The notes beneath the pieces are model-generated. The model did not search any database. It saw only the letters and a list, made by a program, of their open reading frames with translations, and was not told the DNA's origin. From Mitsuokella multacida DSM 20544 (GTDB lineage: Bacteria > Bacillota > Negativicutes > Selenomonadales > Selenomonadaceae): 64,000 nucleotides of DNA. This document shows positions 23,623-30,172 of this stretch, one piece after another. The position numbers and the translations under genes were made by a program. The stretch lies in NCBI RefSeq assembly GCF_000155955.1, contig NZ_GG697141.2, positions 124,001 through 188,000 on the forward strand. The letters are read 5' to 3'. Each line of letters begins with the position of its first letter. Positions within the stretch are counted from its first letter, which is position 1.

Positions 23623-25911
23623 ATGTATATCTCATTACATAACCATAGTGACGGCAGTCTACTCGATGGCTACCAGACTGTACAGGAAATGGTAGCCCGT
23701 GCAAAGTCATTAGGTATGCCTGCAATCTCTCTGACTGACCATGGAACAATGCGGAATACCATTCGTTTCTACGAGGAGTGCCAGAAAAACGACATCAAGC
23801 CTATTGTTGGCTGCGAGTTCTACTTCTGTCCCGATGTGAATATCAGGGATAAGTCACTGACACACCATTTGGTCATCCTTGCAATGAACGATGAAGGATA
23901 CATGAACCTCAAGAAACTCGATACGTTTGCGTACAATGAGGACTCGTACTACTACAAGCCCAGAATTGACTGGGAAGCCCTGCGGGAACATAGTGATGGA
24001 CTCATTTGTCTGTCTGCATGCATGGCGTCCATTGTCAACACAGAGAATGGCGAGGAGTGGTTCGAGAAATACAAAGAGCTGTTTGGAGATCGTTTCTATG
24101 CAGAGATTCAGCCGCTCAACCTCGAGAAACAGTGGGAGTACAACGACAAGGTCATTGGATTGGCACGGAAATACGATGTTCCCCTTGTTGTAACAACAGA
24201 TGCTCATTACTCTATCCCAGAGGATAAGGTATATCATAGCCATTGGATTCGTATCAATGGCAACCAGTATCACGATGACGAGAACTACATCTGGTCAGAT
24301 GACGAGATACGGAGCACAAAGTGGATTCCACAGGATGTTATTGATGAGTGCATCGAGAACACAGAACACATTGCGAGCCTTTGCAACGTCACAATCCCCG
24401 ACTCTGGTAGTCACTATCCAAAGTATCCCTGTTCCAATCCTAAGGAAAAGGTAAGGGAAATCTGTAGGAGGCACTGGAAAGAACTTGTGCCGAAAGGGAA
24501 ATACAAGGAATACGCTGAACGCTTTGAGATGGAGATGAAAGACCTTGAAGCAACGAATTACCTTGAGTATCTACTGATTATCTGGTCTGTATTGAGTTGG
24601 TGTAAAGAACAGCGTATTCCGTTGGGAGAAGGCAGGGGTTGCTCGATTTCTGGAACCAAGGTTCTTATGTGGAATGGCACAGTGAAAAACATAGAAGATA
24701 TTGTTGTTGGCGACAAGGTTATCTCTCATACTGGTCAGATTCGTGAAGTAACCAATACGTTCAAGTATGAGGTCAATGAGCCAATGATTCAGGTGACGGT
24801 TGAGAAGAGAAATCCAATGACGTTCACTTGTGACCATAAAATTCTCGTATTCAGAGGATCACGTTGCCACAAGAAAGAATCAACTGGGTATAAGTATTGC
24901 AGACCTACATGTTCACAGTCTTGTCGAAAGTATGGTTCATACGAATGGATTCCAATGGATGAAGTAGAGAAGGATGACCTCGTATGCTTCCCGCAGGTTC
25001 GTTTACCTAAACCCCAGCAGACAAGAATAGATGTGAAGGAACTATTCCAAGATGTCATTGAGAAGGATGGATACGTTAATGTATTTAGTAATGATGCGCA
25101 GTGGGAAAAAGGAAAAATTCCTCGATATATCGACATTACTCCAGACCTTTGCAGGCTCATTGGTTATTTCATTGGTAACGGATGGGCAACAAAGGGCACG
25201 CACAAAGATGGGGTTTCGGGAGGATATAAACTCGGCATTGCTTTTCCGACAATTCATATGGAATACGTAGAGGATTGTCGCAGATTACTCAAGCAGATAT
25301 TTGATGCAGATACCTCGGTTAAACCAAACAAAAGGAATACTTGTGTCCAGATACATTGTTATAGAAGTATCATCGCCATGCTTTTTGCCAAGTTGTGCGG
25401 CGTCCATGCAATCAACAAGCACATCCCAGATATTCTAATGGTTGATAATCCATCATGGACAGTACATTTGCTTGAAGGATTGATGAGAACCGATGGTTCT
25501 GTGGCGGGAGGTAGAACAACATACGATTCTATTTCGTACAACCTTGTCTGTCAAATCAAAACTCTGTGGTCGTACCTGGGGAGAGACGCAGTGATTAGAA
25601 TTAGGAACGTAACGCATAAAAACTGGCATACGTCTTATAAACTTGTCCTGCACTCGACGTCGAGATGGCACGGAGACAACATGTTCCACACCGAGGTGAA
25701 GGATGTAAAGCATATTGATAATTTTAAAGGATATGTTTATGACTTCACTACAGATGTAGACCATAGCTACATTGCAAACAATACGGTTGTCCATAATAGT
25801 TCAGCCGGATGTCTCGTTGGCTATCTCATGGGTATCCATAAGATTGACCCGATAAAGTACCACACGGAGTTCTTTCGGTTTTGCAATAGAGAGAGAAGAA
25901 GTCCAGCAGAT
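23623..25911 (+). CDS. dnaE: DNA polymerase III alpha subunit (DnaE-type), exon 1, with intein 1
   Basis: First part of the phage replicative polymerase. Residues 1-250 form the PHP domain with intact-looking metal ligands (LHNHSDGS, LTDHGTM, GCEFYF, TTDAHY). The palm begins after it. Residues 340-725 are an intein in GRG/SSAG. The remaining extein continues SSAGCLVGYLMGIHKIDPIK to FCNRERRSPAD. The frame then hits a stop at 25918. The natural continuation, VDSDLS, is found only at 26894, which completes the catalytic PDxDxD-type motif as ADVDSD. Exon 1 contributes 377 extein residues. Splicing of an RNA intron is therefore required to make the enzyme. AAGGAG precedes the ATG. Confidence 0.93.
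24640..25797 (+). mobile_element. Intein 1 (386 aa) with LAGLIDADG homing endonuclease
   Basis: Begins with Cys (CSISGTKVLMWNG; block A) and ends VVHN followed by Ser as first C-extein residue, the canonical splice junctions. Block B is FTCDHKILV (the TxxH motif). Two LAGLIDADG-like motifs are present: LCRLIGYFIGNGW and LLEGLMRTDGSV. The C-terminal blocks read YVYDFTTDVDHSYIANN. Removing it restores GRGSSAG, the nucleotide-binding turn conserved in DnaE proteins. All splicing residues and the endonuclease appear intact. Confidence 0.93.
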
Positions 25912-26893
25912 AAATATTAATGTCGAGCTGCTTGGAAACAAGTGGTGTTAATTCTCGTGAACGCTTAATTCAGCGGTGTGGGGGAACTCCCTGCTAACGG
26001 TGGAACTCCTTATGATTAAGGACAATACCGTGCTAAGTAATTTCGCAACCTTGTCATCTACAGAAAGGATGATGAGGATATATAGAAATATTCCTGGGTA
26101 TGACGGGAAATACATCATGTATGATAATGGAGATGTATGGAATGCCATATCCCAAAAGAGAATCTTACCCAAGGTAAGAGGTAAGATGAAATTGCCTAGT
26201 TATCGGCTTTATGACGCGAACGGTGTTGGGCATGTGAAATCAGTTGAAACATGGTATTCGGTTGTATTTCCAGAAAAAGGACATGAACGAAAAAATGGAT
26301 TCATGGATATACCAGGGTATCAAGGGCTATATGGTATCTCTACTAGTGGAGAAATATGGTCTTACAGTAAAAAGAGAGTCCTAATATCAAGTCCAACAAC
26401 AACATGTCCTTACCTCTGCATCAAGTTATCGCTCAACAATAAAGTACATTACGAGTTAGTTCATAGGTTAGTTGCTATGACATATATTCCTAACCCAGAT
26501 AACCTCCCAGAGGTTGACCACATAGATAGGAATATTATGAATAACAATGTTAGTAACCTAAGATGGATTAATCGAATTGGCAATCTAAAGAATAGCTCAT
26601 GCGGGTTAGTTCGAAACTTTCGAGAGTGCTCATTGTTTTACAATGGAACGTTCGTCGGAAGGTATCAATCAATATGTGAAGCAAGTAGGGAAGGACATAA
26701 GCTGTTCGGAGCTTCATATAGTGGGCTTAATAGGAATCTTAAAAGTAAAGGCTGCGAAATTAAAAGTGTAACGACTAGTCCGTTGGGACGTAGGGTGGGG
26801 TAATGAATTACCACTCGAAGTGCGAGATACCTAAACCAGAAATGGCATGGTAAAGAGATAGTCTAATCCCTGTGGTAACATAGGGTAGTAATG
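25912..26893 (+). ncRNA. Group I-like self-splicing intron (982 nt) within dnaE
   Basis: Exon 1 ends in U (GAT, 25911) and the intron ends in G (26893), as group I introns require; splicing joins GAT to GTTGAT and restores the polymerase motif. Exon bases GCAG (25906-25909) can pair with CTGC in the intron at about 25927-25930, with CC/GG next to it, giving a P1-like helix. Near the 3' end is GAGATAGTCT (26854-26863), like the conserved P7/S region, followed by a CCCTGTGG...CATAGGG hairpin. ACGGT/ACCGT and CCTT/AAGG stems at about 25988-26035 fit P4-P6. A full fold was not computed. An HNH gene fills the middle. Confidence 0.85.
26072..26803 (+). CDS. Intron-encoded HNH homing endonuclease (NUMOD4-type)
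   Basis: 243 residues from ATG 26072, just after AGAAAGG. Two NUMOD4-like modules (IYRNIPGYDGKYIMYDNGDV and FMDIPGYQGLYGISTSGEIW) precede an HNH core: HRLVAMTYIPNPDN, VDHIDRNIMNNNVSNLRW. The C-terminus resembles a NUMOD1 DNA-binding helix (GRYQSICEASREGH). Such enzymes cut intronless alleles and spread the intron. The reading frame is intact, so homing may still work. Confidence 0.9.
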   Translation: MRIYRNIPGYDGKYIMYDNGDVWNAISQKRILPKVRGKMKLPSYRLYDANGVGHVKSVETWYSVVFPEKGHERKNGFMDIPGYQGLYGISTSGEIWSYSKKRVLISSPTTTCPYLCIKLSLNNKVHYELVHRLVAMTYIPNPDNLPEVDHIDRNIMNNNVSNLRWINRIGNLKNSSCGLVRNFRECSLFYNGTFVGRYQSICEASREGHKLFGASYSGLNRNLKSKGCEIKSVTTSPLGRRVG

Positions 26894-29371
26894 GTTGATA
26901 GTGATCTCTCTACATTAAACCGTGGACGTGTCATTGAACACGTCAAAGAGATGTATGGTAACGTCTGCAAGGTACAGACACTGGGATACACGAAAGACCC
27001 TGATAAACCAAGCGCAGGCAAAGAAGCTGTACTAAAAGCATGGCAGGCACTGTTCAACAAGTACAAAGACAATGCCCCTATGATTCCTTGTGAAGAACAG
27101 GGTGGCCTTATGATTGACCCGTCATGGGAATACAATCCGAAGTTCAAGACTGAGGCATCAAAATACGTCGAGTCTTCCATTGATGATTTACAGGACGCAC
27201 CCATTTCACTCAACGAGGAACAGAAAGCAGAACTCATTGATGTGGCAAAACATTTCTGTGGACGCATCGACAAGATTGGTGTTCATGCATCGGCTGTCCT
27301 TGTCACTCCAGATGACCTCGTGAACTATACACCAGTAGAAGGATGCTATTCCAATGATACATCTACGAAGAAGCGCGAATACATCCGTACTGCATGTTAT
27401 TCATTCCATGAGTTAGAGCAGCGTGGCAATCTCAAACTGGATTTGCTTGGACTCAACACGTTAGACCTCATCGACAAGTGCATGAAGTACATCGGCAATG
27501 ACATGAACCTCGATGACATCCCGATGGATGACGTAAAGGCGTATGAGATGTATTCCAACGGCAACCTCGATGGAGTGTTCCAGATGGAGTCTCCTGGTAT
27601 GCGCAAGGTTGCCAAGGAGCTACACGTGTCATGCTTTGATGACGTTGCGGCACTCGTCGCTTTGTACCGGCCAGGCCCTCTTGACTCAGGGATGATGCAA
27701 CAGTACATCGACGGAAAGAATGGTGCTGCTGTAGATTACCTCTGTGATGCATATAAAGAGGTCACGAAGAATACATTCGGTGTCATTGTCTATCAGGAGC
27801 AGTGTATGAAGCTCGCTATGAAGATGGCAGGGTACTCACTGGGCGAAGCGGATATGCTACGTAAGGTCATTGGACGCAAGGAGATGACAAAGATTGATGC
27901 TGCGGTCAAAGAGTTCATCACTCGCTGCATGAAGCATGGGTATTCCCATGAGGTTGCAGAGAAGGTTGGTATGCAAATCAAGGCGGCGGGCCGATACCTG
28001 TTCAACAAATGCCTGAGTGGCCGTGAGTGTGTTGTTATGCATACAGGAGCAAGGACGAAGCGGTCTATCCGTGAGTTGTACAGGTTCTTTCACGATGACA
28101 AGTATAACAAACGCCAGCTTGACCCTTGGAATGTCAATGGCGTCAAGGCGTGTTCGATGGATAACGATGGCAAGATGGTGGAGAACTATATTGTTGACGT
28201 TAGAGAGTCTGGTATCATGCCCGTGTTTATCCTTGTAACAGAGTCTGGAAAACAGGTAAGATGCACGTTGAACCATAAGATTCCAACACCAGATGGAACC
28301 AAGTTGTTGGTGGAGCTGTCCGTTGGGGACTCTGTGTATGTATCTGATGTACTCAATACACACATTGAGAAGGTCTCGGCTATCTCCTATGAGTGCGACG
28401 AGATGTGCTACGACGTTGAGATGGATGACCCATATCACAACTTTGTGACTAGCAATGGTATTGTCGTATGTAACTCCCATTCTGTTGCCTATGGTCGTCT
28501 CTCGTACAAGACGGCGTACCTCAAGGCTCACTACCCTGTACAATTTATGTGCGCTTTGTTAAATACCAAGGATAAGCAAGAGGATATATTGCCGTATGTT
28601 GCCAACTGTAAGGCCATGGGTATCCGTATCCTTCCACCGAGTCTCTTTGAAGGGAACCGTGAGTGGGAGATTGTCGGCAACAATGCAATCCGTGTCGGAC
28701 TCACGTACATCAAGGGTGTTGGCAAGAAACTGGTCACGGAGAAGTACGGTGCGTTCAATGACAGGGAAATGCTTACAACATGGAAGGACATTGTGGCATA
28801 CAATAGCAGCGATGTTGTGAAAAGCCTTATCAGTGCAGGAGCATTGGACTTCCTGAAGAAGTCTCGTGGTTGGATGATGGGCAACCTACTGGAGACTCAG
28901 AGATTCACGAAACGCATGGCGCAGTGCGAGGAGAGGTTCAACTATTATCGTGACCAGTATGATAACGCAACGAATGACAAGGACAAGGCTCGGGCAATCC
29001 GTATGGCGAATCAGTGGAACGACAAGATCAATGCAACGATTCTCCACGAGAAGCCAGAGGTTTCCTTTGATAACGCCGCAGGAGAGATGAAGGTGCTTGG
29101 GTTCTCTTTTTCGAGTCTGCCTGACATCCTCACAGGTATTGCATCGTCTGTCCATGAGATTACAACAAAGAATGGCAACAAGATGGCATTGGTTACGTTC
29201 AAGACCGACTATGGAGACTTCAAGGGTTCCATCGCACCATTCCTGTGGGGACAGGGCAAGACACGGTATGGACGCAGCAAGCTGTTTGTTGTTCAGGGGA
29301 AGACATATGATTTCATGCTGAAGAAGAATGGCCAGTATACGGATATTGTCGATGTAAAGGAAGTGTGCTAA
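26894..29371 (+). CDS. dnaE: DNA polymerase III alpha subunit (DnaE-type), exon 2, with intein 2
   Basis: Continues the polymerase with VDSDLSTLNRGRVIEHVKEM. Palm and fingers motifs follow: the third catalytic Asp in LKLDLLGLNTLD, VALYRPGPLDSGMM, YQEQCMKLAMKMAGYSLG, ADMLRKVIGRK. The FNK/SHSVAYG motif is interrupted by intein 2. The C-terminal part includes helix-hairpin-helix and an OB-fold-like region (KNGNKMALVTFKTDYGDFKG). After removal of the intein, exon 2 gives 670 residues; the mature enzyme is about 1,047 residues, close to normal DnaE length. The ATG at 26891 is the last intron codon and is not a true start. Confidence 0.93.
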   Translation, partial: VDSDLSTLNRGRVIEHVKEMYGNVCKVQTLGYTKDPDKPSAGKEAVLKAWQALFNKYKDNAPMIPCEEQGGLMIDPSWEYNPKFKTEASKYVESSIDDLQDAPISLNEEQKAELIDVAKHFCGRIDKIGVHASAVLVTPDDLVNYTPVEGCYSNDTSTKKREYIRTACYSFHELEQRGNLKLDLLGLNTLDLIDKCMKYIGNDMNLDDIPMDDVKAYEMYSNGNLDGVFQMESPGMRKVAKELHVSCFDDVAALVALYRPGPLDSGMMQQYIDGKNGAAVDYLCDAYKEVTKNTFGVIVYQEQCMKLAMKMAGYSLGEADMLRKVIGRKEMTKIDAAVKEFITRCMKHGYSHEVAEKVGMQIKAAGRYLFNKCLSGRECVVMHTGARTKRSIRELYRFFHDDKYNKRQLDPWNVNGVKACSMDNDGKMVENYIVDVRESGIMPVFILVTESGKQVRCTLNHKIPTPDGTKLLVELSVGDSVYVSDVLNTHIEKVSAISYECDEMCYDVEMDDPYHNFVTSNGIVVCNSHSVAYGRLSYKTAYLKAHYPVQFMCALLNTKDKQEDILPYVANCKAMGIRILPPSLFEGNREWEIVGNNAIRVGLTYIKGVGKKLVTEKYGAFNDREMLTTWKDIVAYNSSDVVKSLISAGALDFLKKSRGWMMGNLLETQRFTKRMAQCEERFNYYRDQYDNATNDKDKARAIRMANQWNDKINATILHEKPEVSFDNAAGEMKVLGFSFSSLPDILTGIASSVHEITTKNGNKMALVTFKTDYGDFKGSIAPFLWGQGKTRYGRSKLFVVQGKTYDFMLKKNGQYTDIVDVKEVC
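28010..28474 (+). mobile_element. Intein 2, mini-intein (155 aa) without endonuclease
   Basis: Starts Cys (CLSGRECVVMHTG) and ends VVCN before Ser. Block B reads RCTLNHKIPT (TxxH). The end region MCYDVEMDDPYHNFVTSNG is a typical intein block F/G. No LAGLIDADG or HNH region is present. The penultimate residue is Cys and not the usual His. Removal restores FNKSHSVAYG, a motif present in nearly all DnaE proteins. Confidence 0.92.
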
Positions 29372-29599: not shown

Positions 29600-30172
29600 A
29601 TGTTGTTTTTACTAGATAATTACGATTCCTTCACCTACAATGTCTACCAGCTGCTGTCGGAACTCGGGGCGGACGTCGAGGTCATTCGCAATGATCAGAC
29701 GACGGTACCCGCGGTCGAGGCGAAGCATTACGAGGGCATCGTGATCTCGCCGGGCCCGGGCGTGCCGAAAGACGCTGGCATCAGCGAGGACCTCATCCGG
29801 ACGCTCGGCGGCAAGGTGCCAATCCTCGGCATCTGCCTCGGCCATCAGGCCATCGGCGAGGTGTTCGGCGGCAAGATCGTGCGGGCCGCGGAGATCATCC
29901 ACGGCAAGGTATCGCCCATCCGCCACAATGGCCGCGGCCTCTATGCGGGCCTGCCGCAGGACGTGGCGGTCGGCCGCTATCACTCCCTGATCATCGACCG
30001 CGCGACGCTTCCAGACTGCCTCGAGGTCACGAGCGAGCTCGCCGACGGCACGATCATGGGCGTGCGTCACAGGGAGATGGACATCGAGGGCATCCAGTTC
30101 CATCCTGAGTCCATCCTGACGCCCACGGGCCGGACGATGATGCAGAACTTCCTCGACCACCTGCGCAAATAA
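29600..30172 (+). CDS. pabA: Glutamine amidotransferase of anthranilate/aminodeoxychorismate synthase
   Basis: 190 residues, class I amidotransferase of the TrpG/PabA type: LLDNYDSFTYN at the start, SPGPGVPKDAG, catalytic Cys in GICLGHQAIGE (about 79), His and Glu in GIQFHPESIL (about 168-170). It supplies ammonia from glutamine to chorismate for tryptophan or folate synthesis. No trpE/pabB partner lies next to it here; upstream context has been replaced by the prophage, so TrpG and PabA cannot be told apart. A GTG nine bases upstream is in frame, but the ATG fits the family start. Confidence 0.88.
   Translation: MLFLLDNYDSFTYNVYQLLSELGADVEVIRNDQTTVPAVEAKHYEGIVISPGPGVPKDAGISEDLIRTLGGKVPILGICLGHQAIGEVFGGKIVRAAEIIHGKVSPIRHNGRGLYAGLPQDVAVGRYHSLIIDRATLPDCLEVTSELADGTIMGVRHREMDIEGIQFHPESILTPTGRTMMQNFLDHLRK

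Follow-up and report, generated by a model that had tools for sequence, protein, structure and literature searches.

Inteins and group I introns favour conserved sites (PMC2814812), and a single gene can host both. Lazarevic (1998), as cited in PMC3653736, described a group I intron together with an intein in the nrdE gene of phage SPbeta, and the RIR gene of Trichodesmium sets a precedent of introns plus inteins in one gene (PMC1635734, PMC4649490). Many introns and inteins are carried by crAss-like phages (PMC7886860), and polymerase genes of Bastille-group phages hold up to three introns, with splicing seen in vivo (PMC11878797). Here we analyse a 64,000-nt window of contig NZ_GG697141.2 from Mitsuokella multacida DSM 20544, a member of the Selenomonadaceae (all coordinates are window positions on the forward strand), in which three selfish splicing elements have very probably invaded a prophage DnaE gene, each at a different active-site motif. 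The literature that we searched, which left most subscription journals outside, yielded no paper on a phage DnaE with such a trio of intein, intron and mini-intein.

A prophage dnaE gene interrupted at three active-site motifs

The gene comprises four exons, or exteins, separated by three inserts, all on the plus strand. Exon 1 (23623–24639; 339 aa) encodes the PHP domain and the start of the polymerase module, as judged by Pfam and by alignment with Thermus aquaticus (Taq) Pol III alpha, and ends in GRG. It is followed by insert 1 (24640–25797), exon 2 (25798–25911; 38 aa, ending in SPAD), insert 2 (25912–26893), exon 3 (26894–28009; 372 aa, running from VDSD to FNK), insert 3 (28010–28474) and exon 4 (28475–29371), which contributes 298 aa and the stop codon. 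When the three inserts are removed in silico, the exons (1,017, 114, 1,116 and 897 nt, each divisible by three) join into one open frame that encodes 1,047 aa and ends in a stop codon. A first-pass annotation, made from the letters of this DNA, had proposed these insert boundaries and a continuous DnaE-type polymerase of 1,047 residues after excision; the boundaries proved exact to the base, given the in-frame exons and, for two junctions, a natural allele (see below), and the polymerase was borne out by the joined frame and by the comparisons that follow.

In the exons Pfam detects PHP, DNA_pol3_alpha, finger and HHH_6 domains, and the fused product aligns lengthwise with Taq Pol III alpha (E=1.5e-121). 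In this alignment D377 at the end of exon 2 corresponds to Taq D463, and D379 and D560 in exon 3 correspond to D465 and D618, the three Taq residues that we take to be catalytic. With a PHP domain, three catalytic Asp residues, a finger domain and homology over most of its length, the product is a DnaE (C-family Pol III alpha) polymerase. In Taq numbering, insert 1 falls between G425 and S426, insert 2 within D463-x-D465 and insert 3 between K815 and S816; each of the three thus interrupts an active-site motif of DnaE. Together, the architecture of the gene and the agreement of its junctions are far above chance. Phage records similar to the fused polymerase number 1,360; in 544 of these the match spans 80% or more of the polymerase, and the best reach about 30% identity.

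The gene lies in a prophage of about 78.5 kb bounded by a 16-bp repeat, TTTTACTAGATAATTA, found at 29607–29622 of the window and at G000:C6:75135-75150 (L088). The prophage sits in the host trp operon where trpE and trpG meet, with an integrase at its left end and dnaE near its right end, adjoining trpG. A separate dnaE (L002) belongs to the host itself.

Natural alleles fix two of the three junctions

The first-pass annotation had also suggested a search for relatives lacking one or more of the elements, and such alleles exist. An IMG/VR contig (L004) encodes a polymerase that is 92% identical to the window DnaE in exon 3, lacks inserts 1 and 2, and retains the mini-intein at FNK|SHS. Its gene is continuous at GEGRGSSAG...RRSPADVDSDLS, with the same junction residues as predicted, and is uninterrupted at both sites (IGEGRGSSAGCLV...RRSPADVDSDLST). 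Two of the three junctions are thus fixed exactly by a natural allele. A more distant locus in family genome G143 (L009; 57% overall identity) is a plain dnaE of 1,043 aa with no insert at all. In L023 intein 1 is the sole insert, and the dnaE of L010 has its intein at G|CHASAILV, a fourth site. Taken site by site, the intein 1 position is empty in L004 and L009, the intron is absent from L004, L009, L010 and L023, and the FNK-SH site is empty in L009 (FNRSHAVSYA) and L010 (FNKAHACSYA). The motifs said to be rebuilt by excision, GRG-SSAG, AD-VDSD and FNK-SHSVAYG, therefore have natural counterparts, the first two uninterrupted in L004 and the third represented by the empty sites of L009 and L010.

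Of 71 DnaE loci that we scanned for large inserts, only that of the window's prophage (also recorded as L022) has three; the trio is known from this single genome. When IMG/VR was scanned for sequences close to intein 1 or the mini-intein, only the same prophage came back; a polymerase profile search recovered L023 and others. Two further architectures appeared among these loci. L081 (6001–13090) is a phage DnaE whose GRG|S site holds an intein; ahead of its HAGG motif lies another region, which resembles a heavily disrupted intein and encloses several additional ORFs. In L052 (6858–7588) and L065 (6675–7631) the PHP and polymerase parts of a phage DnaE are split by small ORFs; no intein was seen in either, and L065 gave no Rfam intron signal. 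The insert-like gaps in L052, L065, L068, L072 and L073 fall outside the active-site motifs, and we counted none of them as an intein or intron.

Compared with L004, the exons show dN/dS of 0.06–0.14. Synonymous divergence is about 0.5–0.75 in exons 1–3 and 1.5–1.7 in the mini-intein and exon 4, and this jump suggests a recombination breakpoint near the mini-intein.

Insert 1: an intein with a probably impaired endonuclease

Insert 1 (24640–25797; 1,158 nt, 386 aa) lies in frame at GRG|SSAG and has the hallmarks of an intein: Cys1 (CSISG...), a block B TCDH and a VVHN end followed by Ser+1. Pfam reports Intein_splicing, LAGLIDADG_3 and Hom_end_hint, with PF14890 at 46 bits, and the PDB matches are PI-PkoII and PI-SceI. 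An active endonuclease of this type has an acidic residue in both LAGLIDADG motifs; motif 2 reads RTDGS, and motif 1 reads GYFIGNGWA, with Asn for Asp, as is also the case in L023 (GNG). Since the catalytic Asp is lost (GNG for GDG), the endonuclease is probably impaired, and we therefore class insert 1 as an intein and not as an active endonuclease. The earlier description of a full intein at this position holds, with the refinement that its LAGLIDADG endonuclease is probably impaired.

Intein 1 is 63% identical to the L023 copy, with 70% identity in the splicing ends and 58% in the endonuclease middle, as compared to 58–66% for the exteins. Because the divergence of the intein resembles that of the exteins, recent homing between the two is not indicated. 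A search of 189 family genomes found no further copy of intein 1. In Lactococcus phage 949, Pol III alpha (HM029250 ORF116) has the GRG|S site occupied by a distantly similar intein, which differs in that its endonuclease GDG is intact and in that it is the only insert of the gene. Residues 76–95 of intein 1 (24865–24924) form a C-x10-C-x3-C-x3-C cluster that is kept in the L023 intein and absent from the phage 949 intein; placed after the N-terminal splicing half and before the endonuclease, it is a possible metal-binding element. AlphaFold2 models built from two-sequence alignments were uninformative for both intein 1 and the mini-intein (mean pLDDT 41 and 32, respectively).

A first LAGLIDADG motif reading GNG, and not GDG or SEG, is what one might expect if the prophage were defective and the inserts were relics in a disused, decaying polymerase gene. 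We rejected this as very unlikely: all four exons and the three insert ORFs are open, exon dN/dS against L004 is low, and the prophage has an integrase and a direct repeat at both ends.

Insert 2: a putative phage-type group I intron

Insert 2 (25912–26893; 982 nt) separates the D377 codon from the V378 codon. It contains an ORF of 244 aa (26069–26803) with Pfam NUMOD4 and HNH_3 domains, as expected for a homing endonuclease; a search of the 189 family genomes with this HNH protein found distant relatives only. Rfam RF00028 (Intron_gpI) matches the 3' part of the insert with 34.9 bits (E=6.3e-7), below the gathering score of 50. Searched alone, the 3' piece gives E=8.3e-6 and the 5' half gives no relevant match; at the gathering threshold, Rfam reports tRNAs only.

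Assigning helices by hand, and partly by analogy with known introns, we found that core helices P3, P4, P5, P7 and P9 pair in the window, as they do in group I introns. P1 (25909–25924) joins exon GAU and A (25909–25912) to UGUC (25921–25924), with only three exon pairs, and places a U25911-G pair at the 5' splice site; the last base of the insert is G26893. Both features are typical of group I introns, and the junction residues are those fixed by L004. P3 pairs UCUCGUG (25953–25959) with UGCGAGA (26821–26827) across the HNH gene. P4 (25997–26001/26027–26031) and P5 (26007–26011/26018–26022) form the element ACGGUGGAA...ACAAUACCGUGCUAAG (25997–26031), and an exact search for the P4-P5 pattern retrieved the same prophage only. 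P7 (GACUA/UAGUC, 26773–26777/26859–26863) was placed by Rfam and hand pairing together with the P7.1 hairpin (26778–26789), both overlapped by the 3' end of the HNH gene; P9 (CCCUGU...AUAGGG, 26868–26885) is a hairpin directly upstream of the 3' splice site. P2 was also assigned, and P8 has three pairs only.

The 3' core is similar at the DNA level to sequence inside terL of phage AR9 (annotated as five joined pieces), to sequence between two pieces of the tape-measure gene of Geobacillus virus E3 (E=2e-5) and to sequence adjoining a lysin gene of a S. thermophilus phage. These resemblances and the predicted fold point to a phage-type, IA2-like group I intron, the subgroup being our presumption from its likeness to known introns such as T4 td.

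In the DnaE gene of Bacillus phage Jayan (PQ299153), the DxD motif likewise holds a group I intron, with the same core helices. The Jayan intron differs in lying 3 nt upstream, before the first Asp (MP|DIDTD), and in lacking a homing gene. Its P1, P3 and P7.1 have other letters that pair in the same places (P3, CCAGAUUG/CGGUCUGG). The intron (L014, 3179–3483) is unannotated, and the database entry gives the gene as two separate polymerase CDS and places a hypothetical protein within the intron, an example of how automatic annotation splits such genes in two. RF00028 does not match the Jayan intron even at E 0.1, which shows that introns of this subgroup are poorly captured by the model; this weakness, combined with the 0.7-kb ORF between P6 and P7, may explain the low Rfam score of insert 2 and the lack of a match in its 5' half.

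Could the insert stay in the transcript, and two polypeptides of 765 (N-terminal) and 826 (C-terminal) residues cooperate as a split polymerase? An ATG at 26891 does open a frame of 826 codons. However, as D377 and D379 correspond to Taq D463 and D465, the catalytic DxD would be divided over two polypeptides unless the intron is removed; moreover, the insert has canonical intron ends and an intact ribozyme core, and frame and junction agree exactly with the empty allele L004. We consider the split polymerase extremely unlikely and rejected it in favour of a spliced intron.

Insert 3: a mini-intein under strong purifying selection

Insert 3 (28010–28474; 465 nt, 155 aa) interrupts FNK|SHS. It starts with Cys1 (CLSGREC), has a block B TLNH, ends in VVCN followed by Ser+1 and lacks an endonuclease. 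While its Pfam Intein_splicing score of 33.3 bits is slightly below the cut-off of 35.8, its PDB matches are the DnaB, DnaE and PolC inteins (best E=4e-9). The penultimate residue is Cys and not the usual His, as it is in L004 and in the gut phage MT835601, all three ending in Cys-Asn; a penultimate His is common but not universal in inteins, and we did not use it as a defining feature. The L004 allele is 83% identical, with dN/dS 0.063 at a dS of about 1.5, comparable to the exteins. The mini-intein is under strong purifying selection and has therefore been kept functional, which suggests that it still works despite the penultimate Cys. At the same FNK|SH site, the MT835601 DnaE carries a mini-intein with 40% identity, and no other insert was seen within the stretch read. 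The cyanobacterial DnaE intein sits a few residues upstream of this site and, unlike the mini-intein of the window, is split between two genes.

Discussion

The identities first given to the inserts (intein, group I intron with an HNH gene, mini-intein) stand on Pfam, Rfam and helix assignments, with the intron refined to a putative phage-type, IA2-like one. From the sequence we infer RNA splicing of the intron and protein splicing of both inteins: the 982-nt intron would leave the transcript by ribozyme splicing, and the resulting precursor of 1,588 residues would lose the 386-aa intein and the 155-aa mini-intein, yielding the 1,047-aa polymerase. The intron probably spread via its HNH endonuclease and intein 1 via its LAGLIDADG endonuclease, now probably impaired, while the mini-intein would persist without one. 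Homing elements generally occupy catalytic motifs because imprecise loss destroys the enzyme. The trio is most simply read as successive invasion of an attractive gene by selfish elements whose splicing load the phage tolerates.

The first-pass annotation had gone further, stating that all three splicings are required before the phage can copy its DNA and that they could act as a timing or stress-sensing control. Sequential RNA and protein splicing would then gate the polymerase as a timer or a stress, redox or GTP sensor of host state, responding, for example, to redox or metal via the Cys cluster of intein 1 or to GTP via the intron, and would delay replication of the induced prophage until conditions suit. 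Introns and inteins that splice conditionally are known, a ‘molecular on-switch’ has been proposed for introns of phage polymerase, RNR and terminase genes (PMC11878797), and the four-Cys cluster is kept in L023. However, relatives carry no element (L009) or one (L004, L010, L023), at varying sites, the host supplies its own dnaE, and no regulatory feature was found in the sequence. Uninterrupted and partly interrupted alleles mean that none of the three elements is required and that any such control is dispensable; the required triple splicing is unsupported, and we regard gating as improbable. Colonisation by selfish elements explains the three inserts with no need for a regulatory function.

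The locus offers a clean natural test case: one replicative enzyme bears three distinct splicing elements, a close allele is without two of them and another allele is without any. Through this series the cost, the homing and the mutual interference of adjacent elements can be compared directly. In phage DnaE, inteins have recurrently targeted the GRG|S and FNK|SH sites, and introns the DxD site.

Mixed introns and inteins in one gene were already known. SPbeta, like the phage described here, is temperate, and its nrdE differs in encoding a ribonucleotide reductase with two elements, as compared to DnaE with three. The Trichodesmium RIR gene is likewise heavily loaded with both RNA- and protein-splicing elements; it differs in being bacterial and in having group II introns. 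AR9 terL and the Bastille/SPO1-type polymerases share phage group I introns, HNH/NUMOD genes and, in some genes, several introns; these are other genes (terminase, a different polymerase family), and the part of PMC11878797 available to us notes no inteins in the same gene. Against this background the dnaE gene of the Mitsuokella prophage is unusually loaded.
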